NCBI RefSeq assembly: GCF_900476395.1
Contig: NZ_UIHB01000002.1
Span: 1-64,000, forward strand
DNA from: Xanthomonas euroxanthea
Lineage (GTDB): Bacteria; Pseudomonadota; Gammaproteobacteria; Xanthomonadales; Xanthomonadaceae
Length of the DNA stretch: 64,000 nucleotides
Direction of reading: 5' to 3'
How positions within the stretch are numbered: the stretch's first letter is position 1; every line of letters begins with the position of its first letter. This document shows, in pieces, positions 8,128 to 22,422 of this stretch. A program made the translations under genes and the position numbers. The notes below the pieces were generated by a model that saw nothing but the letters and a program-made list of their open reading frames with translations, was not told the DNA's origin and did not search any database.

Positions 8128-10692
8128 TTACTCCTGGCGGCCGGGATCCACCGAGATCAATCGGGTGACATCCAGCAATGCGGCCGGCAGATGCATGCCG
8201 CCCGGCGCGACCAGGTAGCGCGGGCGCCAGGTCGGGGCGAACTTCGATTTGAAGCGACGCAAGCCGCTGAAGCCATAGAAGCGCTCGCCGTGACGCGCGA
8301 CCAGGCTGGCGAAGCGATTCCAGCGGCCGGCCAGGCGATGCTCGGCCAGGCCCGACAGCGGCGCCATGCCCAACGAGAAGCGCGTATAGCCGTTGGCTTG
8401 CCCCCACAGGAACAGCTCGATGAACAGGAAATCCATCGTGCCCTTGGGCGCCTGCGCGCTGTGCCGCATCAGGTCCACCGACAGCTCGCCGCCGGCCGGC
8501 GCTTGCCACACGTTGGCGAAGGCCACGATCTGGCCTTCCGCCTCGGCCACCGCCACCGGGAAGCGGCGCAGATAGTCCGCATCGAAGCTGCCCAGCGAGA
8601 AGCCCTTCTCTTCGCCGGACTTTTCTTCCAGCCATTGTTCGGACACTTCGGACAGGCGCGGCAGTACCGCATCCACCTGTTCGGGCTGCAGCATGCGGAA
8701 GGTCAGGCCGCCGCGCTTGCCGCGGTTCCAGGCCTGGCGCAGATCGGCGCGGTCGCGGCCCTCGAGGGTGAAGCCTTCCAGCGGCACGATCGCCTCTTCG
8801 CCCAGCTTGACCAGGGTCAGGCCCATGTCCAGATAGGTCTGCCAGTATTTTTCGCCGACCTGGTAGAACACCGGGCGCAGGCCCATATGGTCGGCCTCTT
8901 CGCGGAAGCGCCAGATCAGTGCGCGTGCGACCTCGGGCGCGCCGACCGGGTCGCCCATCGAGATCAGCGAGCCACCGTAACGCTGCATCATCACAAACCC
9001 GCGGCCCTGCTCGTCGAGCAGGAAGGCCTTGTCGCCGGTCAGCGCCAGGCAGGCCTGGGTGTCGGTGCTGATGGCCAGGATCGGCGCCAGCGTCTGCAGG
9101 GTCTGCGCATCGGCGGACGGCATCGGGCGGCGGCCGCCACGCAGCAGGCGCGCCATGCCGAACACGATCACGCCCACGCACAGGATCAGCGCCGCGCGCA
9201 GCGCACGTGGCGCGTTGGCCGAGGTGGCGAATTCCCACCACAGGTCGTTGCTGTATTCGACGTGGCTGTAGACGAAGAACAGCAGCCAGAACGTGGCCAC
9301 CAGCACCAGGCCGAGGTTGCTCAGCCAGCGCCACGACCAGGCTTCGTCCAGCAGCGCGCCCTGGCGGTAAAACTCGCGGCGTGCCGCCCACAGCGCCACT
9401 GCGGCCAGTGCCGCCGACAACGACACCGAGATATGGCTGCCGCGCAACAGCGACAGCGGCGGCAGCAGGACGCACACGCCCAGTGCCAGCACCCAGGCCG
9501 CATGGCTGCGCCGTTGCAGGCCCTGGCCGATCAGCAGCAGCACCATGCCGCCCAGGCTGACCAGCAGATGCGAGGTCTCGATCAGCGGCAGCGGCGCCAC
9601 TTCCTGGCGCGCGCGCGGGGTGGGCAAGGTGCCGTCGATGACCAGCGCCGCACCCACCGCAAACACCGCCAACGCCAGGATCTGCGGCAACCACGGGCGC
9701 AAGGCCTTCCATACCGTGCGTGCGGTGCTGGCGCTGGCGCGCACCGGTGCGCCCAGGCCGGAGGCTGCCGCCATCGCCACCGAGATCAGCAGCGGCACGA
9801 TGTAGTAGGTAACCCGGTAGGCCAGCGCGGCGGCCAGCACCGCGGCGGGGGTGACATGCGGCAGCAGCTTGAGCAGGCTCCACTCGAACACGCCCAGGCC
9901 GGCCGGCACCGTGGAGATCAGCCCGGCGACCACCGCCACCAGCCAGATGCCGATAAACCCGAAGTAGCCGGTGCCCGGGTCCGGCGGCAGCAGCACGTAG
10001 AACGCGGCGGCCGCCAGGCCCAGCTCGACCACGCTCAGCGCGGTGACGCCGAGCACCGTGGTGCGGTCGGGCAACCAGAAGCGATGACGGCCAATCCCGA
10101 ATTCGCGGCCCTGCCTGCCAACCAGTCCCAGCATCGCAACGTAGCCCACCAGCAAGGCGATACCGGCGATGCGGATGCCTTCTGCGGTGATCGGCAGTGC
10201 ACGCGCAGCCGCTTCCGGTTCCAGCATCAGCGCCAGGCCAAGCAACACCCAGGCGCCGAAGACGAAGCCCAGTGTGCTCATCAGCACCACCTGGCCGATC
10301 TCGGCCAGGGTCAGCCCGACGCTGCCATAGCCGCGCAGGCGGACCGCGCCGCCGGTGAGTGCGGCAAACCCCAGTGTCTGCCCCACCGCGTGCGCCATGA
10401 AGGCGGTGATGCCCACGCGCGCCGGGTGCAGCCGCTTGCCGGTGCGCTTGAGCCCGACCCAGTCAAAGCCCACCAGACAGGCGTAGCTGCTCAAGCCCAG
10501 CAGCAAGGTGAGCGCGATCTGGCCGGTACCCAAGGCACGGAACGCCTGGCGGATCTGCCGATAGCCGTGGTCGGTGAATTGTCCCGACAGCGCATGCAGC
10601 GCCATGGCCAGGATCGCCAGGCTGATGATCACCGGCAAGGCGCGGCGCCAGCCGCTGGCCGGCGCTTGGGAAGACACGGAGGTATCCGTCAT
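8128..10692 (-). CDS. mprF: Bifunctional lysylphosphatidylglycerol flippase/synthetase MprF
   Basis: Inner-membrane enzyme that moves lysine from Lys-tRNA to phosphatidylglycerol and flips the product outward, lowering net negative charge and increasing resistance to cationic peptides. About 854 residues: an N-terminal flippase part with many membrane segments, a second membrane block, and a soluble C-terminal DUF2156 synthase domain (GxGDP-like ISMGDPVGAPE, then FSLGMAPLSG near the end). The ATG at 10692 (MTDTSVSS) is used; a start at 10731 would add 13 residues and neither has an obvious ribosome binding site. It converges with acvB. The donor amino acid could be lysine or alanine; sequence alone does not decide. 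Confidence 0.9.
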   Translation of the reverse strand: MTDTSVSSQAPASGWRRALPVIISLAILAMALHALSGQFTDHGYRQIRQAFRALGTGQIALTLLLGLSSYACLVGFDWVGLKRTGKRLHPARVGITAFMAHAVGQTLGFAALTGGAVRLRGYGSVGLTLAEIGQVVLMSTLGFVFGAWVLLGLALMLEPEAAARALPITAEGIRIAGIALLVGYVAMLGLVGRQGREFGIGRHRFWLPDRTTVLGVTALSVVELGLAAAAFYVLLPPDPGTGYFGFIGIWLVAVVAGLISTVPAGLGVFEWSLLKLLPHVTPAAVLAAALAYRVTYYIVPLLISVAMAAASGLGAPVRASASTARTVWKALRPWLPQILALAVFAVGAALVIDGTLPTPRARQEVAPLPLIETSHLLVSLGGMVLLLIGQGLQRRSHAAWVLALGVCVLLPPLSLLRGSHISVSLSAALAAVALWAARREFYRQGALLDEAWSWRWLSNLGLVLVATFWLLFFVYSHVEYSNDLWWEFATSANAPRALRAALILCVGVIVFGMARLLRGGRRPMPSADAQTLQTLAPILAISTDTQACLALTGDKAFLLDEQGRGFVMMQRYGGSLISMGDPVGAPEVARALIWRFREEADHMGLRPVFYQVGEKYWQTYLDMGLTLVKLGEEAIVPLEGFTLEGRDRADLRQAWNRGKRGGLTFRMLQPEQVDAVLPRLSEVSEQWLEEKSGEEKGFSLGSFDADYLRRFPVAVAEAEGQIVAFANVWQAPAGGELSVDLMRHSAQAPKGTMDFLFIELFLWGQANGYTRFSLGMAPLSGLAEHRLAGRWNRFASLVARHGERFYGFSGLRRFKSKFAPTWRPRYLVAPGGMHLPAALLDVTRLISVDPGRQE

Positions 10693-10953
10693 GAGGGAAA
10701 CGGGATCTGCTGGAGGGGAAGAAGGGCACATGCATGGTGCGTGCCGCGCGGGCGGTTGGTCTGCATGGGCCGGTCGGTGTCAAGGTACATGCAGGGTGAT
10801 CGCGTGGATGCCCAATGAGGTGAACGCAGGCTTCGGTCGTGCGGACAGGTGTCGGCTCGGGACGGCCGCGCGCATCATAGGGCATCGCCGCGACCACGTG
10901 CCGCAGGCGACCCACCTGGACACGATGACCGTTGCACCACAGACAGGCAATTG

Positions 10954-12258: not shown

Positions 12259-13329
12259 TCAGCGTTTGACGAAGCGATAGTGCGCCACACCCCACTCGCG
12301 ACCCTGGTCGTAACCGAACAATTCGGCGCAGGCCAGCCAGAACATCCGCCAGCGCTGCCACCAGCGCTGCGCATCCTCGCCATAGGTCTGCTTCAGCAGC
12401 GGCATGATCTGCGCGCGGTGGCGGTCCTGGTTCTCCAGCCAGGCGTTGGCGGTTTTTTCGTAATGCTCGCCCGACAGCACCCAGCGCTGTTCGATCACCA
12501 CGTCCTGCTGGAAATGCAGCAGGGTATCGGCCGCCGGCATCAGCCCGCCGGTGAAGAAATGCCGCCCCATCCAGTTGTCTTCGCCGGCCACCTCGAACGG
12601 GTAGGCCAGGTCGCGATGGCAGAAGATATGCACGAACAGCTTGCCGCCCGGCGCCAGCCAGCTGCCGACGCGCGCCAGCAGCTCGCGGTAATTGCGCATG
12701 TGCTCGAACATTTCCACCGACACCACGCGGTCGAAGTTGCCCGGCGGCAGCGCCAGCGCGTTGACGTCGGCGGTGATGACCTGCACGTTGCTCAATCCGC
12801 GCACCCGGCACTGCTCCAGAATGTGCGCGCGCTGCGGACGCGAGTTGGACACCGCGGTGATGGTGGCGCCGGGATAGCGCTCGGCCATCCACAAGGTCAG
12901 CGAGCCCCAGCCGCAGCCCAGCTCCAGGATGCGTTGGCCGTCGGCCAGTTCGGCGCGCTCACCGTACAGCGCCAGCATGCGTTCTTCGGCCGCATCCAGA
13001 TCCGGCGTGGTGGCGTCCCAGTAGCAGCTGCTGTACTTGAGCCGGCGGCCCAGGCACAGGGTGAAGAACTGCGGCGGCAACTCGTAGTGCTGGCGATTGG
13101 CCGCATCGGTTTCGATGGCGATCGCGCTCGCGCGCAGGCTGTCGATGAAGGCGCGCTGGCGCTCGCCGCTGGCATCGGCACCGCCGGTGCGCTCATCGCG
13201 CAGGCGCTGCGCGCACAAGCGGCGGATGCCGTAACGCAATGCGGCGTCGGGGAGCACGCCGGATTCGGCCAGCCGGGTCGCGACGGATTCTTCGGGCAGC
13301 GAGGAGGGCGGAACGGTAATGGTGGACAT
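12259..13329 (-). CDS. SAM-dependent methyltransferase, CFA synthase-like (second copy)
   Basis: 356-residue class I methyltransferase of the cyclopropane-fatty-acyl-phospholipid synthase superfamily. HYELPPQFF (81-89) and the SAM-binding ILELGCGWGS (134-143) mirror the CFA fold, but the N-terminal lipid-binding domain is much shorter than in true CFA synthase and the family's AHYDLGN becomes NRQHYELP. It is therefore a paralogue likely to methylate a different unsaturated lipid or a different position. Last gene of the seven-gene operon; it starts 17 bp after the DUF1295 gene. Exact reaction unknown. Confidence 0.85.
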   Translation of the reverse strand: MSTITVPPSSLPEESVATRLAESGVLPDAALRYGIRRLCAQRLRDERTGGADASGERQRAFIDSLRASAIAIETDAANRQHYELPPQFFTLCLGRRLKYSSCYWDATTPDLDAAEERMLALYGERAELADGQRILELGCGWGSLTLWMAERYPGATITAVSNSRPQRAHILEQCRVRGLSNVQVITADVNALALPPGNFDRVVSVEMFEHMRNYRELLARVGSWLAPGGKLFVHIFCHRDLAYPFEVAGEDNWMGRHFFTGGLMPAADTLLHFQQDVVIEQRWVLSGEHYEKTANAWLENQDRHRAQIMPLLKQTYGEDAQRWWQRWRMFWLACAELFGYDQGREWGVAHYRFVKR

Positions 13330-13346
13330 ACGACTCTCCAGGCGAC

Positions 13347-14129
13347 TCAGGACGAAGGGGGAAGCGGGAAAAACGCGCTGGTGCTGCGCTGGTACTGCGC
13401 ATAGTCCTCACCACGCGAGCGCAGCGCCTGCTGCTCGGTGTAGGGAATGCCGGTGAAGCGATACAGGAACACGAACATCACCACCGGCCCCAGCGCGGCC
13501 AGGGCAAGCGGCCATGGCCCGGCACCGACGGCCAGCGCCAGGTAAGCGAACCAGTGCACGAACTCGAAGAAGTAATTGGGATGCCGCGAATATCGCCACA
13601 AGCCGCTGCGGCAGGTGACGCCGCGATTGGCCGGGTTGGCCTTGTGCGCAGACAGTTGCCGGTCGGCCAGGGCTTCGCCACCGACCGCGATCAACCACAC
13701 CGCGATCGCCAGGGTGCTCCACGCGCTCCAGGCCGGATTCGGATTGCTGGCAGCGGCCAGAAACGGCACACAAAACAGCACCACCACGACCGCCTGCGCC
13801 AGAAAAAAGCCCAGGAACTTGCGTTGGTCGCCGTTCCAGTGCTCGCGCAGGGCACGATAACGGCCATCTTCATGCGGGTCGCCGAACACACGCACGCCCA
13901 GATGCAGCGCCAGGCGCGCGCCCCAGACACCGCCGAGCACGGCGACCAGCACGCGCGGCAGCAGCGCGCCATCGGACATCCACGCGCAATACGGCGCAGC
14001 CAGGGCCAGGCACGCGGACCACAGCACATCGACCGGGCCGGCATTGCCGCTGCGGCGTTGCCACAGCCAGCCGATCACCATCACCACGCTCGCAAACACG
14101 CCCACATGCAGCAGCGGCCAGGCATTCAT
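13347..14129 (-). CDS. DUF1295 membrane protein (steroid 5-alpha-reductase-like)
   Basis: 260-residue integral membrane protein with about seven hydrophobic segments. The C-terminal half has the isoprenylcysteine methyltransferase/steroid reductase-like signature YSRHPNYFFEFVHWFAYL, which in related enzymes contributes to NADPH or SAM binding. DUF1295 proteins regularly accompany CFA-type operons; a lipid double-bond reductase or methyltransferase role is plausible but unproven. Its ATG overlaps the stop of the DUF2878 gene by 4 bp (ATGA at 14126-14129), so translation is probably coupled. Confidence 0.82.
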   Translation of the reverse strand: MNAWPLLHVGVFASVVMVIGWLWQRRSGNAGPVDVLWSACLALAAPYCAWMSDGALLPRVLVAVLGGVWGARLALHLGVRVFGDPHEDGRYRALREHWNGDQRKFLGFFLAQAVVVVLFCVPFLAAASNPNPAWSAWSTLAIAVWLIAVGGEALADRQLSAHKANPANRGVTCRSGLWRYSRHPNYFFEFVHWFAYLALAVGAGPWPLALAALGPVVMFVFLYRFTGIPYTEQQALRSRGEDYAQYQRSTSAFFPLPPSS

Positions 14130-14671
14130 TGCAGTTCTCCCCTCGGATGGTCAGGCGATGGTCGCGCCAGGCGGCGTGCATACAGCGACAACACGCCGCA
14201 GGCCAGGCCCCAGCCGATGCCGACTGCGACCACCGCCTGCAGCTGTGGCGGCCGGAATTCCACCGCCTGCCAGCCGCGTTGTGCCAGCCAATACGAAAAC
14301 GGACCGAAAATCGCGCCCAGCAGCACCGCCAGCCATGGCCGCTGCATCACCGATGCCAGCGAATGGTTGAGCGTGAGCGCAAAGCCCAGCCACAACGCCA
14401 GGATCCAGGCCGGCGCCAGCAGGGTGCCCGGCCACGGCGCGGCGTAGCGCACCCAGCCGCCCGCCGCCAGCGTGGTATCCAGCAGCAGGCCCAGCGACAG
14501 CGCGGCGACCAGCAGCTGCGGATCGCCCGGCGCACGCCGCGACGGCCACAGCTGATACAGCGCAAACAACGCCAGCGCCAGCAGGGTAGGCCAGATACGC
14601 GCCTGCGCGGCCGCGCTGACGGCCACCAGCCATAGCACCTGCAGGCCCAGATAGTTGCCGAGCTGCTTCAT
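14126..14671 (-). CDS. DUF2878 membrane protein
   Basis: 181-residue hydrophobic protein with about five to six membrane segments, matching the DUF2878 family, which occurs almost only in CFA/DUF1365 operons. It starts MKQLGNYLGLQVLW and has a polar [10 protein letters not shown] loop after TM2. No catalytic motif is visible; a role as membrane partner of the lipid-modifying enzymes is inferred from context alone. It overlaps the CFA gene upstream and the DUF1295 gene downstream by 4 bp each. Confidence 0.8.
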   Translation of the reverse strand: MKQLGNYLGLQVLWLVAVSAAAQARIWPTLLALALFALYQLWPSRRAPGDPQLLVAALSLGLLLDTTLAAGGWVRYAAPWPGTLLAPAWILALWLGFALTLNHSLASVMQRPWLAVLLGAIFGPFSYWLAQRGWQAVEFRPPQLQAVVAVGIGWGLACGVLSLYARRLARPSPDHPRGELQ

Positions 14672-15963
14672 GCGTCAACGGGAAGGCCGGGCACGAACTG
14701 CGGCGGGCGCGCACCCGGCTTGCTCAGCCATAGATGCACATCGCCAATCGAGCGCTCCAGGAAACCAGCTTCGCAATAGGCCAGATAGAACTCCCACATG
14801 CGGATGAAGCGCTCGTCATAGCCGAGCGCGCGCACCTGCGGCAGCTGCGCCATGAAGCGCTGGCGCCAGGCGCGCAGCGTCAACGCATAGCTCGGCCCGA
14901 TGTCTTCCAGGTTGAACAGGCGCAGGTCGCTGGCGCGCGCGATCGCGCCGGTCATCGCCGCCACCGATGGAATGAAGCTGCCGGGGAAGATGTGCCGCTT
15001 GATGAAGTCCACCGAGCGCAAGGCCTGCGCATAGCGATGGTCTTCGATGGTGATGGCCTGGATCAGCGCCTGGCCGTCGTCGGCCAGCAGGCTGCCGACC
15101 TTGGCGAAATAGGTGTCCAGATACTGATGGCCGATGGCCTCGATCATCTCGATCGACACCACCCGATCATAGCGGCCGTCCAGATCGCGATAGTCGCGCA
15201 ACAACACCGTGACCCGGTCGCTCAGGCCGGCCGCGGCGATGCGCTGGGTGGCCAGTTCGAACTGCTCGCGCGAGATGGTGGTGGTGGTGACGCGGCAGCC
15301 GTGCGCGCGTGCGGCGTGCAGCGCGAAGCCGCCCCAGCCGGTGCCGATTTCCACCACGTGGTGCTGCGGGCCGAGCTGCAGTTTCTGGCAGATGCGTTCG
15401 AGCTTGCGCGTGGCTGCGCGCTCCAGGGCCGCCTCGCCCTGGGCTTCTTCGCCATCGACGAAGATCGCCGAGGAATACATCAGGTTCTCGTCGAGGAACA
15501 GGCGGAACAACGGGTTGCCCAGGTCGTAGTGCGCGGCGATGTTGCGCCGGCTGCCGCTGCGGGTATTGCGTGCGAACGCATGCAGGCTGCGCATCGCCCA
15601 GCCGCCCAGCCGCGCGGTGCCGGTTTCCATCGCATCCAGGCGGTCGCGATTGCGCAGCAGCAGGCGCATCAACGCGACCAGGTCGTCGCAGTGCCACTGC
15701 CCATCCATGTACGACTCGCCGGCACCGACGCTGCCGTTGAGCGCGGCCTGGCGATAGAAGCCGGGGTCGATGACACGCAACTGCACCTGCAGCGCATCGG
15801 CGCCACTGGCGTTGCCGAGGGTGGTGACGCCATCGGCTTCGTGCAGCTGCAATTGTCCATCGCGCAGCTCGCCGAGCGTGGCCAGCAGGCGCTTGCGCAA
15901 CAGGCGGTCCGTCCAGGAAGCCGCGCGCGGCGCAGCGGTGTCGGGCAGGGACGTGGCGTTCAT
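14668..15963 (-). CDS. cfa: Cyclopropane-fatty-acyl-phospholipid synthase
   Basis: 431-residue enzyme that transfers a methylene group from SAM to cis double bonds of phospholipid acyl chains. N-terminal lipid-binding domain to about residue 140, then AHYDLGN (144-150), LMYSSAIF (161-168), SAM-binding VVEIGTGWGG (203-212), and the SIEMIEAIG segment. Length and motifs match the CFA family. In operons of this type the homologue may instead act on the special lipids made by the neighbouring desaturase. The ATG at 15963 overlaps the DUF1365 stop by 4 bp. Confidence 0.92.
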   Translation of the reverse strand: MNATSLPDTAAPRAASWTDRLLRKRLLATLGELRDGQLQLHEADGVTTLGNASGADALQVQLRVIDPGFYRQAALNGSVGAGESYMDGQWHCDDLVALMRLLLRNRDRLDAMETGTARLGGWAMRSLHAFARNTRSGSRRNIAAHYDLGNPLFRLFLDENLMYSSAIFVDGEEAQGEAALERAATRKLERICQKLQLGPQHHVVEIGTGWGGFALHAARAHGCRVTTTTISREQFELATQRIAAAGLSDRVTVLLRDYRDLDGRYDRVVSIEMIEAIGHQYLDTYFAKVGSLLADDGQALIQAITIEDHRYAQALRSVDFIKRHIFPGSFIPSVAAMTGAIARASDLRLFNLEDIGPSYALTLRAWRQRFMAQLPQVRALGYDERFIRMWEFYLAYCEAGFLERSIGDVHLWLSKPGARPPQFVPGLPVDA

Positions 15964-16868
15964 CGGGGTTCTCGCACAGGCGGATGAGGGTGATCGTGGA
16001 CCGGGTTGCCGCGCAGCCACAGGCGCAGGGCCTGCCAGTGGATGGCCAGCACCACCTGCACGGTCATCAAGGGATAGGCCAGCAGCGTGCGCGCCAGGGT
16101 GCGCGCGTTGAGCGGCTGGCGCTGCAGGACCAGGGTGGCATCGAAGCGGCGTGCACCGCTGCCTGCGCCATCGGCCTCGGCCGCGGGGCTGCCGCCCGGC
16201 GCGTCGCCGCCAGGCGCATCCAGCACGTCCATATGCACGCGCAACTGCGCCTCGGGCACGCTGAAACGCCAGTCGTACTGGTGCTGCATGCCCATGAAGG
16301 GCGAGACGTGGAAGCGCTTGTCGAAGCGCCAGGCATGCACCTGGCGATGCGTGCGCGCCTGCGCGACCGGCAGCACGTAGGTGTGGCGCTGCTGCCACGG
16401 CGTATTGGTGATTTCCGCCACGACCCAGCGCAGGCCCCCGTGGCGATCGAAGCAGTAGTAGAAGCTGACCGGATTGAACACATGGCCGAAGTAGCGCAGA
16501 TGCGTGAGCAGGCGGATCGCGCCGTCGGGGCGCTCGCCGGTCTGGGCCTGCACGCAGTCGCGCACTGCCTGGTCCAGCGGAATGTCCGGGTCACCGAGAT
16601 AATCGCTGCGCCGGAACTGCGCCAGATTGGCGCGCCCCACCGACCATAGCCAGCGCCGCGCAAACACCACATCGAGCTCGGACAGATCCAGGTACATCAG
16701 GAACAGCCGGTAGCGAAACGCCAGCGGCCTGGGCGCAAACCGGCGGTGCCGCACCCAACCGGTATAGATCGCGCTGCGCATCGCGCCCAGCCCACTGACG
16801 GCACCGCTGTCCTCGCCCGGAGGCAGCGGTATCGCATCGGGGCTGGCGTCGCGCAGCAGCTGCATCAC
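15960..16868 (-). CDS. DUF1365 family protein
   Basis: 302-residue soluble protein of the DUF1365 family, a constant partner of CFA synthases and FAD oxidoreductases in proteobacteria; function unknown. Conserved motifs visible are RHRRFAPRPLAFRYRLF, the LTHLRYFGHVFNPVSFYYC block, and HVSPFMGMQ. A GTG at 16868 overlaps the upstream stop (GTGA) and is immediately followed by an ATG at 16865; either may initiate. A low-complexity Gly/Ala insert (residues about 220-240) is lineage-specific. The YCFD segment could be enzymatic, but no reaction is known. Confidence 0.86.
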   Translation of the reverse strand: MMQLLRDASPDAIPLPPGEDSGAVSGLGAMRSAIYTGWVRHRRFAPRPLAFRYRLFLMYLDLSELDVVFARRWLWSVGRANLAQFRRSDYLGDPDIPLDQAVRDCVQAQTGERPDGAIRLLTHLRYFGHVFNPVSFYYCFDRHGGLRWVVAEITNTPWQQRHTYVLPVAQARTHRQVHAWRFDKRFHVSPFMGMQHQYDWRFSVPEAQLRVHMDVLDAPGGDAPGGSPAAEADGAGSGARRFDATLVLQRQPLNARTLARTLLAYPLMTVQVVLAIHWQALRLWLRGNPVHDHPHPPVREPR

Positions 16869-18115
16869 CAGTCCACTCCCAGGCCATGGGCCACATCGAC
16901 GCCGCTGCGCAGGCCGTCTTCATGGAAGCCGAAGCCCCAGGCCGCGCCGGCAAACCAGGTGTGCTGCACGCCCTGGATCTCGGCCTTGCGCGTCTGCGCG
17001 GCGAGGGCGGCCGCGTTCTGCACCGGGTGGCGGTAGCGCATGCGCCGCAGCACCTTGTCCGGGGCGATGTCGTGGTTGCGATTGAGGCTGACGATGAACG
17101 GCTGTGGCGCGTTGAGCGACTGCAGGGCGTTCATCCAGTAACTCACCGTGCACGGCGCCTGCGGGTCGGCCGGCACATGCGCATTCCACGCCGCCCAGGC
17201 GCGGCGATCGCGTGGCAGCACGCTGGCGTCGGTGTGCAGGACGGTGTCGTTGTCCTGGTAGGTGATGCCGCCCAGGACCTGCCGCTCGGCTGCGGTGGCG
17301 TCGCTGAGCAAGGCCAGCGCGTCGTCGGCATGGCAGGCGAGCACCACGTTGTCGAAGTGCTCTTCGCCACGCAGGGAACTGAGCACCACACCGTTGGGCG
17401 CGCGGCGGATCGCATGCACCGGCGTGGACAGGCGCTCGAGCACCTGCCAGCGCCGGCGCAGCGCACGCACGTAGCTGCTGGATCCACCACGCACCACCTG
17501 CCACTGCGGACGCCCGCTGAGCTGCAGCATGTGGTGGTTGGCCATGAAGCCGATCAGCTGGCCCATCGGGAATTCGAGGATGCGCTGCGAGGGCGATGAC
17601 CACAGTGCCGAGGCCATCGGCACCAGATGCTGGTCGCGAAACGCCGCCGAATACCCATGCCGCTGCAGATACGCGCCCAGCGTGCTGAAGCGCTCCTGGC
17701 TGTGCAGCACCGCCGGCGCCTGCCGATAGAAGCGACGCAGGTCGGCCAGCATGCCCCAGAAGCGCGGGCTGAGCAGATTGCTGCGCTGGCAGAACAGCCC
17801 GCCCAGGCTGCCGGCGTTGTATTCGAGCCCGCTGCGCGCGTCGTGCACCGAGAAGCTCATCGTGGTCGGCTGCGCGGCCACGTCCAGCTCGGCGAACATG
17901 CGCGTGAGCAGCGGATAGTGCTGCGGGTTGAACACGATGAAGCCGCTGTCCACCGCATAGCGTTGGCCGTCCAGCTGGATGTCGTGGGTGTGCGTATGTC
18001 CACCCAGATAATCGGCGGCCTCGAACAAGGTGACCTCGTAGCGGCGCGACAGCAGCCACGCCGCGCCGAGGCCGGCGATCCCGCTGCCGACCACGGCAAT
18101 CCTGCCCTCGCTCAT
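16865..18115 (-). CDS. FAD-dependent oxidoreductase of the CFA operon (amine oxidase fold)
   Basis: 416-residue flavoprotein. The dinucleotide-binding GSGIAG begins at residue 10, followed by the second-half [14 protein letters not shown] typical of NAD(P)-binding Rossmann/amine-oxidase proteins found next to DUF1365 and CFA. It probably oxidises or isomerises a lipid double bond; relatives take part in unusual fatty acid pathways. Its ATG overlaps the desaturase stop by 4 bp (18112-18115) and its stop overlaps the DUF1365 GTG. The specific substrate is inference. Confidence 0.85.
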
Positions 18116-19110
18116 CGGCTCACCCGCTCGGCACGTTGCGTGAGCGATGTCGGCATCGGCTTGAGGTCCCAGACCAGGCCCACCCACGACATCGCGGTGA
18201 GCCCGTACCAGGTGAGGTCGTACTCCCACCAGCGCAGGCCCTGGCGTGCGGAGCCGGGAAAGAAGTGGTGATTGTTGTGCCAGCCTTCGCCAAAGGTGAG
18301 CAGCGCCAGCAGCCAGTTGTTGCGGCTGTCGTCGCGGGTGTCGAAACGCCGGCTGCCGAAGCGATGCGCCAGCGAATTGATGGTGAAGGTGGCATGGAAC
18401 AAAGCCACGGTGGAGATCACAAAGCCCCACACCAGCAGTTGCGCGCCGTTGGTCTGCAACGCGGGCGCGGCAACCGCCAGCCAGTCGCCGAGCAGGTATA
18501 GCCCGGTTGCCAGCAACACCGGCATCACGATGTCGAAGCGGTCCAGAAAACGCAGCTCGGCAAAGCGGCGCAGGTCCGGGATGACCTCCCAGTCGGTGCG
18601 GAAGTTGCGCGGGGTCAGGAACCAGCCGGTATGGCTCCACCAGAAGCCGTGCTGCGCCGGCGAATGCGGATCGCGGCCGGTGTCGGTGTGGCGGTGATGA
18701 TTGCGATGATGCGCGGCCCACCACAGCGGCCCGCGCTGCACGCAGGTGGCGCCGATGGCCGCGAACACGAACTGCAGCACGCGCGAGGTCTTGAACGCGC
18801 GGTGCGAGAAGTAGCGGTGGTAGAACCCGGTCAGCGCAAACATGCGCAGCGCGTACAACGCCACCGCCATGCCGACCGCGAACCAGGACGCACCGACCCA
18901 CAGGACCGCCAGGCAGGCCAGGTGCAGCGCGATGAAGGGCAGGGCACGCAGCCAGTCGATACGGTCTGCGCGTGCTTCGTCCAGCGGTTCGTCGGTTTGC
19001 GAATCCACCCAACGACGCAGGCTGCCGGTACGCGCTGCGATCCACCCACGTCGGCGGGTGTCGGCAGGCTGCGGCGGCGCGGCATGTGGGTCAAAGCCAG
19101 TACTCGGCAC
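18112..19110 (-). CDS. Membrane fatty acid desaturase (acyl-CoA/acyl-lipid type)
   Basis: 332-residue di-iron desaturase that introduces a double bond in a fatty acyl chain using O2. All three histidine boxes are present: HRYFSH (98-103), HHRNHHRH (134-141) and HNNHH (278-282), with membrane segments between. No in-frame ATG lies upstream of box one except deep in TM1, so the start is the GTG at 19110, which has a GGAG about 8 bp ahead. First gene of the lipid operon, thus the desaturation likely prepares substrate for the two methyltransferases. Confidence 0.9.
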
Positions 19111-19139
19111 GCGTGGTTCTCCGTGTGTAGTGGTGACCC

Positions 19140-19160
19140 TTTACGGACGCTGCCGGTAAA
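19140..19160. promoter_or_regulatory. Imperfect palindrome in the desaturase leader
   Basis: tttacggacgctgccggtaaa has matching TTTAC ends and lies about 30 bp upstream of the GTG start. The minus-strand 9-mer CAGCGTCCG inside it also occurs upstream of the ECF sigma gene (20785-20793). It could be part of a promoter or operator, but the match is short for GC-rich DNA. Confidence 0.25.
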
Positions 19161-19283
19161 CAGATGCACCAGCGCGTTCGATCGTCGCATGCGCGCGCGC
19201 GCTTGGCGTGCCGGTGCGAACGAATCGCGCAATTGCGCACACATTGAACCGCGCCAGCCAGGGGTGACGCAGATGAGGCTGTT

Positions 19284-19332
19284 GCGCGCCTGACGCCGCC
19301 TGCAACGTGGTCGCAGGCGGCGTCAGGCGCGC
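19284..19332 (-). terminator. Perfect 20-bp hairpin between anti-sigma gene and lipid operon
   Basis: Arms at 19284-19303 and 19313-19332 are perfect complements with a 9-base loop. The hairpin begins 4 bases past the anti-sigma stop codon. No T-run follows on the minus strand, so it may end or attenuate transcription, or protect the mRNA 3' end, rather than be a classic terminator. Confidence 0.6.
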
Positions 19333-19336
19333 CGGA

Positions 19337-20179
19337 TCAGGGCGCCATTGCCAGCGTGCTGATGCCGCCCTTGGCCACCACGGTACCGGTGGCGACGCCG
19401 CCCGGTGCACCGCCCGGCGGCTCCAGCGTCACTGCCAGGATGGCCTCGTTGCTGAGCATGGGCATCAACTGGTCGGGAATCTGCGCGCGGCGTGCACGCT
19501 GGTCGTCGAAGGTGCCCATCGAATGCGCCTTGCCGTCCGGCGTGATCAGCCACAGCTCGGGTACCTTGTCGGCGGTGGCGGTGCGATCCAGCGGCGTCAC
19601 CGTGATGGTGTGCTTGTCGGCATCCATCAACGCGACATAGCCGGGGCGGCCGTCTTCGGTGGCCAGCGTGGAGGTCATCGCAATGCCGGTCGCCGGCGCG
19701 GTGGTGGCCGCCGGCGGCGTGACCGGTGTCTGTACCACCGGGCCGGTGCCCTGCGGCGGCGATACCGGTGCCGGTGGCGTGCGCAGGTTCAACAATGCCA
19801 GCAGGCACACGGCCGCGGTGGCCAGGCCGCCGGCGCTTGCCCAGCGCCAGAACCGCACACTGTTCCACACCGCTGTCGTTGGCGCGCCTGCCGGCGGCGC
19901 TGTCGACGGCGCGGGGGGCACTGCGTGCAGTGGCGTGTCGAAGCCGAGGGTGTGGCGGATGCGTGCCCAGACCTGGCCGGGCGGCGTTACGGCGGCGATC
20001 TCGTCCAGCAACGGCGCCAGATGTTCCTGCCACTGCGTCACTGCCTGCGCAAACTGGCCGTCGGTGGCGACGCGTTGTTCGGCAGCCAGGCGCTCGTCGG
20101 CGCTCAACAGGCCCAGCACGTATTCGCCGGCAAGCACCTCGCGCGGCGGTTCCTGGTCGATGGGAAAGGGCGTGCTCAT
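19337..20179 (-). CDS. Anti-sigma factor, RskA type, single-pass membrane protein
   Basis: 280-residue regulator that should hold the adjacent ECF sigma factor at the membrane. The N-terminal cytosolic part (AGEYVLGLLSADERLAAEQR...) is the usual anti-sigma/zinc-finger-like helix bundle but lacks the HXXXCXXC zinc motif. A membrane segment follows at about residues 110-130 (WRWASAGGLATAAVCLLALL), then a Pro/Ala-rich linker and a C-terminal RskA periplasmic domain. The ATG at 20179 overlaps the sigma stop (ATGA); MSGTM at 20191 is an alternative. It is followed by a strong hairpin before the lipid operon. Confidence 0.87.
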   Translation of the reverse strand: MSTPFPIDQEPPREVLAGEYVLGLLSADERLAAEQRVATDGQFAQAVTQWQEHLAPLLDEIAAVTPPGQVWARIRHTLGFDTPLHAVPPAPSTAPPAGAPTTAVWNSVRFWRWASAGGLATAAVCLLALLNLRTPPAPVSPPQGTGPVVQTPVTPPAATTAPATGIAMTSTLATEDGRPGYVALMDADKHTITVTPLDRTATADKVPELWLITPDGKAHSMGTFDDQRARRAQIPDQLMPMLSNEAILAVTLEPPGGAPGGVATGTVVAKGGISTLAMAP

Positions 20180-20739
20180 CGTTCCAGACATGCCTTGAGT
20201 TTGGCCAGGCCGCGGCGGATCCAGCTCTTGACCGTGCCGATCGGGGTGTCGGTGCGTGCGGCGAGTTCTTCGTAGGTGATGCCGTCGAAGAACGCGGTGC
20301 GGATCAATTCGCTGCGCGGCGGTTCCAGCTCCGCCAGGCAGTGGTCGATGCGTCGGCGCGTGCTGGCGCGCTCGGTGCGCTCCAGCGGCGAGGCATCGCT
20401 GGCGCGCAATTCGCCGGCATCGTCCAGCGCCACGTTGCGGCGTTGCGGGGCATTGGCGCGCAGATGGTCGATGGCCTTGTTGCGCGCGATCATCGCCAGC
20501 CAGGTGAGCCCGCGTGCACGGGTGGGATCGAACTGCCCGGCCTTGTGCCAGATCAGCGTGAACACGTCCTGCAGCACCTCTTCGGCTTCGGCACGGTGCG
20601 GGATCATGCGCAGGCACACCCCGAAGAGTTTGGGCGAGGTCTGCCGGTACAGCGCTTCGAAGGCATGCCGGTCGCCACCCGCGGTCGCGGTCAGCAGTCG
20701 TCCGGTTTCATCGTCGTCGTGGCCAGGGATGGCACTCAT
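20176..20739 (-). CDS. ECF RNA polymerase sigma factor (SigK/RpoE-like)
   Basis: 187-residue extracytoplasmic-function sigma factor. Region 2 covers residues about 20-90 (FEALYRQTSPKLF, AEEVLQDVF, RARGLTWLAMIARN) and region 4 about 130-185 (ELIRTAFFDGITYEELA, then PIGTVKSWIRRG helix-turn-helix). Its 4-bp overlap with the anti-sigma gene shows a cognate pair. Sigma/anti-sigma pairs beside CFA-DUF1365 operons respond to singlet oxygen or lipid oxidation in other proteobacteria; the signal here is inferred only. Start at the ATG at 20739. Confidence 0.92.
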   Translation of the reverse strand: MSAIPGHDDDETGRLLTATAGGDRHAFEALYRQTSPKLFGVCLRMIPHRAEAEEVLQDVFTLIWHKAGQFDPTRARGLTWLAMIARNKAIDHLRANAPQRRNVALDDAGELRASDASPLERTERASTRRRIDHCLAELEPPRSELIRTAFFDGITYEELAARTDTPIGTVKSWIRRGLAKLKACLER

Positions 20740-20797: not shown

Positions 20798-21169
20798 TCA
20801 CTTGCGCTGCTGAAACCACAGCAGGACGGCAGCGAGCAGCAACAGGATCTCGACGCCGGCCAATGCCACCGTGGGCGCGGAGACCGGCCACAGGCGCGCC
20901 AGGGAGACGCTGCGGAACAGCACGATCGGCACGTAGAACGCGAGTGCGACCAGCAGGCCGGTGCGCGGTTGATCGATCCACGCGAAGTAGCCGAACAGGA
21001 ACGCCATGCCCAGCTGCAGGCCGCCATAGATGACCAGGTATTCCGATTGCCCGGCCGGCGAGAGCTGGGTGTAGCCCACGGCATTGGCGGTCTTGGCCGG
21101 CGAGAGCGTGCACCAGATCGCCAGCACGACGTAGAGCACTGCGTTGATCCAGAGGTAGGCCTTGGCCAT
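20798..21169 (-). CDS. Small membrane protein, DUF4345-like
   Basis: 123-residue protein with four hydrophobic segments (LWINAVLYVVLAIWCTL, EYLVIYGGLQLGMAFLFGYF, LLVALAFYVPIVLFRSV, VALAGVEILLLLAAVLLWF), resembling DUF4345 proteins. Function unknown. It ends 58 bp before the sigma gene on the same strand, so it may share a transcript with it or be a target of the sigma factor. The ATG at 21169 is chosen because upstream in-frame codons do not look coding. Confidence 0.75.
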   Translation of the reverse strand: MAKAYLWINAVLYVVLAIWCTLSPAKTANAVGYTQLSPAGQSEYLVIYGGLQLGMAFLFGYFAWIDQPRTGLLVALAFYVPIVLFRSVSLARLWPVSAPTVALAGVEILLLLAAVLLWFQQRK

Positions 21170-21254: not shown

Positions 21255-22043
21255 TCACGGGGCGCTGCAGCTGTTGACCAGCGGCTGCTCGCGCGCCTGG
21301 CGCAGCGCATCGGCGCTGACCGCACGCGCAGCGGTGTCCGGAAAAACGATGCGCACATGCGGATAGCGGCCGCGCTCGTCGCGCAGATTGCCCACGCCGC
21401 GGAATTGCAGCAGACGTTTGTCGGCGATCGAATAACGCACTTCGAGCGCGGGCACTGCCGCGCCGTACCACGCATCCAGGCTCAGGCGAAAACGGCGCTG
21501 GCCGCCGGTATCGTCGATGCGCTCGACACGGAATGCCAGCTGGCGTTGCAGGCTTGGCAGCACGAAGTCCACGCGCTGCGGCGTGCCGGCAAGCGCCTCC
21601 CAGTGGCTGCGCAGGTATGCATCGAAGCCGGCATCGATCACGCGCGGGCCGTCGTCGGCCGGCAGTGGCGTGCGTTGCTCGGCCTTGCCGGGTTCCTGCT
21701 GGAACATCTCGCGCACGCCGTCGCGCTGACGCACGCCCTGGCGATAGCCGTCGCGGCCGTCGATCAGGCTGAAGTCGGGCGAACTGCCGCCGCCATCGAC
21801 CTGCTTGCGCGCAAACGGGCGTCCGTCCGCGCAGCGATACAGCACGACGCGCCCGCCATCGTCGAGCAACCAGTGCGACTCGCGATAGCGCAGCGCACCG
21901 CTGTCGCCATCGAAGGCATCGCCATCCACACGGGTGACCGCCGCCGCACTCAGCGGCAAGCCGCCCAGCACCAGCAGCAGCAACGGCGGAACCGGCCGGC
22001 ATACGCTGGCGAGCGCGGCAAGGGCAGCGGCGAGTGGACGCAT
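21255..22043 (-). CDS. Exported hypothetical protein (262 aa)
   Basis: Secreted or periplasmic protein: a signal peptide with a long hydrophobic core ends near residue 35 (LPLSAAA), followed by a soluble domain rich in Asp and Arg with no Cys until two near residues 70 and 259. The pattern (REMFQQEPGKA, VDFVLPSLQRQLAFRVERI, ALEVRYSIADKRLLQFRGVGNLRDE) suggests a beta-rich fold; I do not recognise the family. It lies 85 bp upstream of the DUF4345-like gene on the same strand and may belong to the sigma-factor locus. Confidence 0.72.
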   Translation of the reverse strand: MRPLAAALAALASVCRPVPPLLLLVLGGLPLSAAAVTRVDGDAFDGDSGALRYRESHWLLDDGGRVVLYRCADGRPFARKQVDGGGSSPDFSLIDGRDGYRQGVRQRDGVREMFQQEPGKAEQRTPLPADDGPRVIDAGFDAYLRSHWEALAGTPQRVDFVLPSLQRQLAFRVERIDDTGGQRRFRLSLDAWYGAAVPALEVRYSIADKRLLQFRGVGNLRDERGRYPHVRIVFPDTAARAVSADALRQAREQPLVNSCSAP

Positions 22044-22422
22044 CGGCGGATTCCTCGATGGGAGTGCCTACCAATACGAGCGCATCCGCAGTGCGGATGC
22101 GCCGGATGCGTCAGGACGTTCCTGACGCGGTGTCGTACCTGGAGGCCAGTGCCACGTGTTTGGGGCGTTGGGCGCTGCCCGGAGCGCAGGTGCGTGCATG
22201 GGATTGCCGGTGCCGCGCCGGCCGCGAGCGAGCGGCCAGGGCGAGGGCGCAGCCGGGTGCGGAAGCCGGGGCGTGGACACAAGTCTGCCGGCTCAGGGGG
22301 CCGGCCGCGAGCATGCACGCGTCGTGCAGGCACGGATGGCGTGCAGACATCGCGGTGCAGGTGGCACCTCCCGTTCCGGGCGTGGCGCGCCTGGCACCTG
22401 CGCCACGCGTCCGGCCAGCGGT
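22044..22422. other. 379-bp intergenic region with two hairpins
   Basis: No gene is evident between the ferredoxin stop and the exported protein start. Two adjacent inverted repeats lie here: cgcatccgc/gcggatgcg (22081-22101, 3-base loop) and gcgtcagga/tcctgacgc (22108-22128, 3-base loop). They sit 38-85 bp upstream of the minus-strand ATG at 22043 and could be operators or RNA hairpins in the 5' leader. Confidence 0.5.

Follow-up and report, generated by a model that had tools for sequence, protein, structure and literature searches.

A predicted dimethyl furan fatty acid operon beside a SigK-RskA-like sigma/anti-sigma pair in Xanthomonas euroxanthea, and exchange of its adjacent regulator among relatives

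Gene layout and identity of the lipid enzymes

We analyzed a 64,000-nucleotide stretch of Xanthomonas euroxanthea (Xanthomonadaceae; contig NZ_UIHB01000002.1 of assembly GCF_900476395.1, positions 1 to 64,000), hereafter the window, in which positions 12259..20739 carry an extracytoplasmic function (ECF) sigma factor, its anti-sigma factor and seven lipid-modification genes, all nine on the minus strand. The coordinates, gene order and labels given in a preliminary description were borne out by an open reading frame check, folding and Pfam, as were the ATGA overlap of the sigma and anti-sigma genes, the hairpin behind them and the GTG start of the desaturase gene. The first six lipid genes are linked by five 4-bp overlaps (ATGA, GTGA, ATGA, ATGA, ATGA), as had been described, and the seventh follows the DUF1295 gene after 17 bp. 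Pfam backed each label (Sigma70_r2/r4, RskA_C, FA_desaturase, Amino_oxidase, DUF1365, CMAS, DUF2878, DUF1295 and CMAS, in order). The transcription units reach past this region, with a second copy of the predicted promoter followed by two small genes and then the sigma gene. In the direction of transcription, the features are:

22075..22101, minus strand: predicted promoter CGCATCC-N16-CGTA before the sigma transcription unit (candidate autoregulation)
21255..22043, minus strand: secreted or anchored protein with one N-terminal hydrophobic segment, first gene of the sigma unit
20798..21169, minus strand: DUF4345 small membrane protein (PF14248, 28.0 bits; cut-off 26.5)
20176..20739, minus strand: SigK-like ECF sigma factor (NF009186, 411 bits)
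19337..20179, minus strand: RskA-type anti-sigma factor (PF10099) with one predicted transmembrane span and without the zinc motif
19284..19332 (about), minus strand: long perfect hairpin between the units, its stem resembling a terminator but lacking a clear U tract
19142..19168, minus strand: TGCATCT-N16-CGTA, predicted promoter for the sigma factor ahead of the lipid operon
18112..19110, minus strand: membrane fatty acid desaturase of the acyl-CoA type, GTG start (PF00487)
16865..18115, minus strand: UfaD homologue, putative FAD-dependent methylated-fatty-acid desaturase (Amino_oxidase; role from PMC7380195)
15960..16868, minus strand: UfaO homologue (DUF1365, PF07103), putative O2-dependent furan-forming step (role from PMC7380195)
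14668..15963, minus strand: UfaM homologue, cyclopropane fatty acid (CFA) family fatty acyl methyltransferase (PF02353, 254 bits)
14126..14671, minus strand: DUF2878 membrane protein (PF11086)
13347..14129, minus strand: DUF1295 membrane protein (PF06966), homologous to the product of the gene that immediately precedes fufM in Rhodopseudomonas
12259..13329, minus strand: FufM orthologue, predicted furan-ring methyltransferase leading to dimethyl furan fatty acid

The hairpin folds at -57.2 kcal/mol (z -7.4), and 0 of 200 shuffles were equally stable. The protein encoded at 21255..22043, which we presume to be what is called DUF6134, had no family match in the Pfam and NCBIfam scans.

The preliminary description had related the operon to furan fatty acid (FuFA) genes of Rhodobacter, and the homologies agree. 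In Rhodobacter sphaeroides and Rhodopseudomonas palustris, UfaM, UfaD and UfaO convert vaccenate-bearing phospholipids to a methylated alkene, then to a methylated diene and, with O2, to a furan, and RPA2569-2571 are reported to be necessary and sufficient for monomethyl FuFA in R. palustris (PMC7380195). Homologues of UfaD, UfaO and UfaM are contiguous in the window, in the same order as in rhizobial loci L010 and L012; homology was judged via rhizobial and Rhodopseudomonas copies, the R. sphaeroides Ufa proteins themselves lying outside the comparison. The window UfaM is 39% identical to UfaM of three Rhodopseudomonas-genus genomes. All four enzymes of the pathway described in R. sphaeroides and R. 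palustris have window homologues; in R. palustris, fufM (RPA0924) lies away from RPA2569-2571 (PMC7380195), whereas in the window the four genes share one operon with a membrane desaturase and DUF2878. The nearest solved chain of the desaturase is acyl-CoA desaturase 1 (4ymk, E 1.5e-26), and this enzyme could supply the double bond. On homology, the best reading of the operon is the known FuFA pathway ufaD-ufaO-ufaM with a fufM orthologue, to which the desaturase, DUF2878 and DUF1295 genes have been added. Its products in the source organism would then be mono- and dimethyl furan fatty acids.

It is unlikely that the operon yields cyclopropane or simple methyl-branched fatty acids instead, UfaM being a standard CFA synthase and the DUF proteins having functions elsewhere. 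UfaM does belong to the CMAS family and aligns over most of its length with the solved CFA synthase 6bqc; in that alignment, however, 'ysca' becomes 'yssa' and 'llhti' becomes 'liqai' in the window protein. We take these two stretches of 6bqc to have catalytic meaning. The authors of a study on Stenotrophomonas maltophilia name both methyltransferases of its cluster CFA synthases (PMC11832516), but the window UfaM is contiguous with homologues of UfaD and UfaO, whose reported substrate in R. sphaeroides and R. palustris is the methylated chain (PMC7380195), and the operon also holds the FufM orthologue.

RPA0924, the FufM of R. palustris, acts on monomethyl furan acid, with no detectable methylation of 18:1; its identity to R. 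sphaeroides UfaM is 26%, compared with 38% for RPA3082 (PMC7380195). A homologue search from the last protein of the window operon gave 419 pattern matches and 376 relatives, of which the best 80 loci were examined. The gene directly upstream of the orthologue encodes DUF1295, as in the window, in 11/11 Rhodopseudomonas loci and in 63 of these best 80 of 376 overall. The window protein is about 50% identical to the Rhodopseudomonas orthologue, with a score far above that to UfaM. In the single-contig Rhodopseudomonas-genus genome G606, the orthologue and UfaM are the two strongest of nine CMAS matches; the former lies at 1.036 Mb and the latter, beside a UfaO, at 2.878 Mb, a ratio of positions (0.360) equal to the ratio of gene numbers 924/2569 (0.360). 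A fragmentary CMAS gene stands at 3.404 Mb, close to the position of about 3.45 Mb predicted for RPA3082. When CMAS proteins of R. palustris XCP were aligned to UfaM, identity was 31.5% over 384 positions for the remaining full-length one and 28.2% over only 216 for the orthologue, a ranking that agrees with the published one, with a smaller gap. By map position, neighbour and ranking, RPA0924 itself being outside the comparison, the second methyltransferase is the FufM orthologue, and methylation of the furan ring is its predicted reaction. A dimethyl FuFA pathway needs two methyltransferases; their number, which had been offered as a sign of novelty, is thus expected, and R. palustris likewise has UfaM and FufM (PMC7380195).

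The nearest solved chains of this protein are plant enzymes of the coclaurine N-methyltransferase (CNMT) type, namely coclaurine (6gkv), pavine and tetrahydroprotoberberine N-methyltransferases, with E values down to 3e-71. A role as an N-methyltransferase on an amine or aminolipid, rather than as FufM, nevertheless seems quite improbable. The plant protein At4g33110 is itself FufM-like and 38% identical to FufM (PMC10940516), with which the nearness of plant CNMT-type structures agrees, and the Rhodopseudomonas-genus relative of the window protein lies at the map position of RPA0924. The gene is also linked to ufa genes in 59/59 operon-holding loci fetched from the family, and the plasmid loci viewed from Acinetobacter, Burkholderiaceae and rhizobia show the same linkage, although in the best 80 loci of the 376 relatives it stands apart from UfaD and UfaO. 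The label 'second CFA synthase' was ruled out for this gene by its CNMT-type nearest structures and its FufM orthology.

The regulatory pair and its exchange among relatives

The window anti-sigma factor matches RskA_C with 73.6 bits and has one hydrophobic segment by hydropathy (114-132). The zinc motif HxxxCxxC was found in 0/32 RskA-type anti-sigma factors, the window's included, and in 18/18 ChrR proteins, and a profile search of the window's genome (G000) gave no match to TIGR02451 (ChrR). A ChrR-type anti-sigma factor was thereby ruled out, as the preliminary description had held. Both redox cysteines of SigK (equivalents of C133 and C183) occur in 32/32 sigma factors of the RskA class and in 0/18 of the ChrR class; in the window sigma, C134 and C184 align with the cysteines of the solved SigK 4nqw, and the protein is about equally close to 4nqw and RpoE 2q1z. 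A similar cysteine contrast has been reported between ECF18/19 and other groups (PMC7509140). The two classes stood apart in a sigma tree (SH-aLRT 99 and 91), built with a quick method and containing some long branches. Three scores argue against a strict SigK-RskA assignment: the window sigma reached 142 bits with the NCBIfam SigK model (cut-off 226), the anti-sigma 87.5 with NF052375 (cut-off 100), and the latter had no match to the RskA N-terminal domain PF22618, which a Tsukamurella protein does match. As the sigma falls below the SigK cut-off and the PF22618 match is lacking, we call the pair, on sequence, SigK-RskA-like and not RpoE-ChrR. A third sigma clade (L190-L199, 10 rows, SH-aLRT 99) lies away from the operon in its genomes; a weak ChrR-like match stands behind the sigma in 8/10, and a motif-like sequence occurs inside most of these sigma genes.

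A UfaD homologue was found in 109/198 genomes of the family, and we fetched loci from 60 of the 109 besides the window's own. Comparative genomics of the cluster, which had been proposed as a check, revealed a conserved core and a varying adjacent regulator: the order desaturase-UfaD-UfaO-UfaM-second methyltransferase was kept in 59 of the 60 fetched loci, while L073, with UfaD only, was left outside the class counts. Of the 60 family loci with the operon (window included), 10 gave no detectable DUF2878 and 3 no detectable DUF1295; behind the operon there is often a lipocalin gene. Classes were counted over 61 loci, comprising the window, the 59 fetched family loci and a locus on an Acinetobacter plasmid (L006). 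The operon was accompanied by an RskA-type pair in 30, by a ChrR-type pair in 14 (including L066, so scored with its ChrR pair at the far end of the operon) and by neither in 17, of which 16 are family loci. The DUF4345 gene precedes the sigma gene in 17/61 loci, among them the window.

On a quick-method tree built from four operon proteins (60 rows; L019 was left out, its extracted desaturase being 13 aa long), the ChrR/RskA label needs at least five changes and the three states need nine, and strongly supported branches force at least three for ChrR. Both pairs occur in one genome in G019, G178 and, by sigma match alone, G176. Transfer of the whole cluster could give the same pattern, which the operon tree does not separate from replacement in place. 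We think it somewhat probable that the FuFA regulon has repeatedly swapped a cytosolic zinc-containing ChrR and its sigma for a membrane-spanning RskA and a sigma with redox cysteines, the DNA target staying fixed while the sensed compartment and chemistry shift between cytoplasm and envelope. The window lineage would represent the envelope version, running dimethyl FuFA synthesis with envelope repair by MsrP, fasciclin and lipocalin.

Clusters of this kind were also found on plasmids from Acinetobacter, Burkholderia, Cupriavidus, Rhizobium and Mesorhizobium and, by homology alone, Caballeronia. The Acinetobacter plasmid, which came from pig manure, has the run desaturase-ufaDOM-DUF1295-fufM and a photolyase gene nearby; the stretch holds no sigma gene, and genes for a histidine kinase and a response regulator adjoin. 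On a Streptomyces plasmid (L231:5742-11563), a FAD-DUF1365-CFA-DUF1295 run stands beside a MerR-family regulator, a further regulatory solution.

The shared promoter and the predicted regulon

The preliminary description had tied the operon to the neighbouring sigma unit, and both carry the same predicted promoter. TGCATCY-N16-CGTA was present at -160..+60 of the desaturase start in 30/30 RskA-type loci, 13/14 ChrR-type loci and 3/17 loci without an adjacent sigma, counts that describe and do not independently test the motif, as it was derived from the same loci. Mononucleotide-shuffled upstream regions contained it in 6 of 12,200 cases. Spacing was fixed at 16 in these counts, and L064, L067 and L068, with a spacing of 17, were scored as lacking the motif. 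Better support than the operon count comes from recurrence of the motif upstream of the sigma gene, where a same-strand site was found within 2.1 kb in 27/30 RskA-type loci (five of them within 500 bp) and within 500 bp in 11/14 ChrR-type loci; a like site precedes the sigma unit in 14/14 loci L014-L027 (genera g1 and g7). The motif also occurs at three units in Burkholderia L007, and Mesorhizobium L012 has TGATCC-N16-CGTA between ufaD and its RpoE gene; the RpoE promoter of Vibrio cholerae has been given as TGATC-N18-CGTAT (PMC5241685). With its ufa genes behind a shared predicted promoter, the window system resembles RpoE-ChrR in operation without belonging to it. By eye, TTCAC followed by ATCACCG precedes the operon in L038, L045, L051, L065, L069 and L071 (also in L064 and L068), all without an adjacent sigma, and perhaps reflects a different regulator in early-branching family members.

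We give little credence to the sigma pair being a chance neighbour, with another ECF sigma encoded elsewhere reading the operon promoter. The hairpin does separate the sigma unit from the operon, and the only sigma pair lies in trans in three loci that have both the operon and the motif (L035, L047 and L049): in two of them an RskA-type pair elsewhere has a like site upstream, and in the third a ChrR pair elsewhere lacks one. In three of four sampled UfaD-less genomes (L206, L207 and L209, not L208), RskA-type sigma genes likewise have the pattern upstream, so such sigma factors have other uses. However, in 16/16 genomes with an over-cut-off NF009186 match such a match lies beside the operon, and every one of the 28 genomes whose ChrR exceeds the cut-off contains UfaD as well, 23 of them with the two side by side. 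The sigma units bear the operon's promoter, the window's genome has no ChrR match, and in S. maltophilia a ChrR partner has been shown by experiment to control the same cluster (PMC11832516). Control of the operon by the adjacent SigK-RskA-like pair is the probable arrangement in the window.

For the wider regulon, we compared GCATCY-N16-CGTA with a reversed-pattern control. Three relatives had 22 against 4, 20 against 3 and 15 against 3 matches; enrichment in the window's genome was weak (14 against 8), a point against the model set out below, and single pattern sites therefore mean little. More weight attaches to sites that recur in relatives. We fetched 20 further sites, chosen by eye: 8 of the 12 other sites of the window's genome, 4/20 from G064, 4/18 from G140 and 4/13 from G134. 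Eight of these 20 precede msrP (4/4 genomes), a fasciclin gene (G000 and G140) or a lipocalin gene (G000 and G064), the search for fasciclin and lipocalin sites having covered the genomes named for each; the G000 copies were identified by family scan, and the others were assigned by likeness. Ten of the other 12 sites fall inside an open frame of at least 150 aa and look like chance, a weak test in GC-rich DNA, as several of the eight target sites also lie inside frames. The msrP, fasciclin and lipocalin genes are thus predicted regulon members. Independent backing comes from Mesorhizobium with ChrR, where msrP-msrQ, fasciclin and lipocalin genes adjoin the ufa genes. The mycobacterial proteins MPT70 and MPT83 are presumably fasciclin proteins. 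SigK controls both (PMC7509140, PMC9861118, PMC5547695), and a fasciclin gene is raised under singlet oxygen in R. sphaeroides (PMC7074977).

A model weighed against known systems

We consider it likely that a stress-released SigK-type sigma, paired with RskA, runs the seven-gene FuFA operon and its own unit. The RskA-type anti-sigma would hold the sigma at the membrane until oxidative or envelope stress frees it, and the freed sigma would transcribe its own unit and the lipid operon from TGCATCY-N16-CGTA promoters. By analogy with the steps known from other bacteria, the desaturase would supply or place the double bond, UfaM methylate it, UfaD form the methylated diene, UfaO close the furan using O2 and FufM add the second ring methyl. 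Membrane phospholipids would thereby carry monomethyl and dimethyl furan fatty acids, which may act as scavengers.

Several points weigh against this model. The account is computational throughout, and we infer the lipid product and the inducing signal in the source organism. Identity of the window UfaO to the copies compared from rhizobia and the Rhodopseudomonas family is only 29-39%. In the window, as in 21 other RskA-type loci, the promoter-like site lies more than 500 bp from the sigma gene (two genes stand between them in the window). No motif was found near the desaturase gene in 11/17 loci without an adjacent sigma, even at spacings of 15-17, so the operon can occur independently of such control. 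In S. maltophilia, tolerance to singlet oxygen and H2O2 was unaffected by the system, and menadione and ceftazidime were not inducers (PMC11832516).

The closest published counterpart is smlt2375-smlt2367 of S. maltophilia, under RpoEc-ChrR (PMC11832516). Its genes smlt2374-2368 encode, in the window's order, a desaturase, a FAD oxidoreductase, a cytosolic hypothetical protein, a CFA synthase, two inner-membrane hypothetical proteins and a second CFA synthase, matched here by order and location, as the available text gives no DUF families for the hypothetical proteins. A lipocalin gene lies behind the cluster, which is strongly sigma-dependent: seven rows rose 165-313 fold on chrR deletion and fell again without the sigma, in a single RNA-seq experiment with qRT-PCR checks. 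The system affects tolerance to menadione (superoxide) and beta-lactam susceptibility. It differs from the window in its RpoE-ChrR pair, which is divergently placed, and the word 'furan' occurs nowhere in the available text (PMC11832516). The desaturase, which had been put forward as novel, is therefore part of a published gene order.

The RskA-type anti-sigma, also proposed as new, has precedents too. On Tsukamurella tyrosinosolvens plasmid L230, FAD-DUF1365-CFA-lipocalin-sigK-RskA genes run in one direction; this run lacks the desaturase, DUF2878, DUF1295 and the second methyltransferase, and its upstream sequence reads CCATCC...CCGAAT as against TGCATCC...CGTA. The Mycobacterium tuberculosis genes Rv0449c-Rv0444c are, we assume, FAD, DUF1365, ufaA1, DUF1295, sigK and rskA. 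Autoregulation from the Rv0449c promoter has been described. Mycobacterial SigK-RskA (PMC7509140, PMC9861118, PMC5547695) shares with the window an RskA_C membrane anti-sigma, both redox cysteines and fasciclin among the predicted targets; in the window, by contrast, the sigma is under the SigK cut-off, RskA_N is unmatched and the operon adds the desaturase, DUF2878 and FufM. In Rhodobacter capsulatus, a SigK-RskA-like pair takes the place of the RpoE-ChrR of R. sphaeroides, and its transcripts rise with singlet oxygen; at that locus the available text lists no RSP_1087-1091 homologues (PMC7074977).

The enzymes, the operon, each kind of regulator and a SigK-RskA pair beside ufa genes (Tsukamurella) were thus already known. 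Among the open-licence papers, we recognised none on FuFA in Xanthomonas or on control of such operons by an RskA-type pair within this family. Nor did we find there an account that identifies the operon as a complete dimethyl-furan gene set, or one that describes sigma/anti-sigma pairs being exchanged repeatedly while the promoter stays constant. If correct, the model would give a function to the published, chemically unidentified S. maltophilia cluster and predict these lipids for roughly half the family genomes sampled. Related genera, with different pairs on the same promoter and operon, would amount to a natural rewiring experiment; this would bear on the SigK-RskA signal, because the exchange partner RpoE-ChrR has studied inducers. 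Also in the window, a large membrane protein encoded at 8128-10731 resembles, by eye, MprF (lysyl-phosphatidylglycerol synthesis), a second lipid-modifying gene near the operon.

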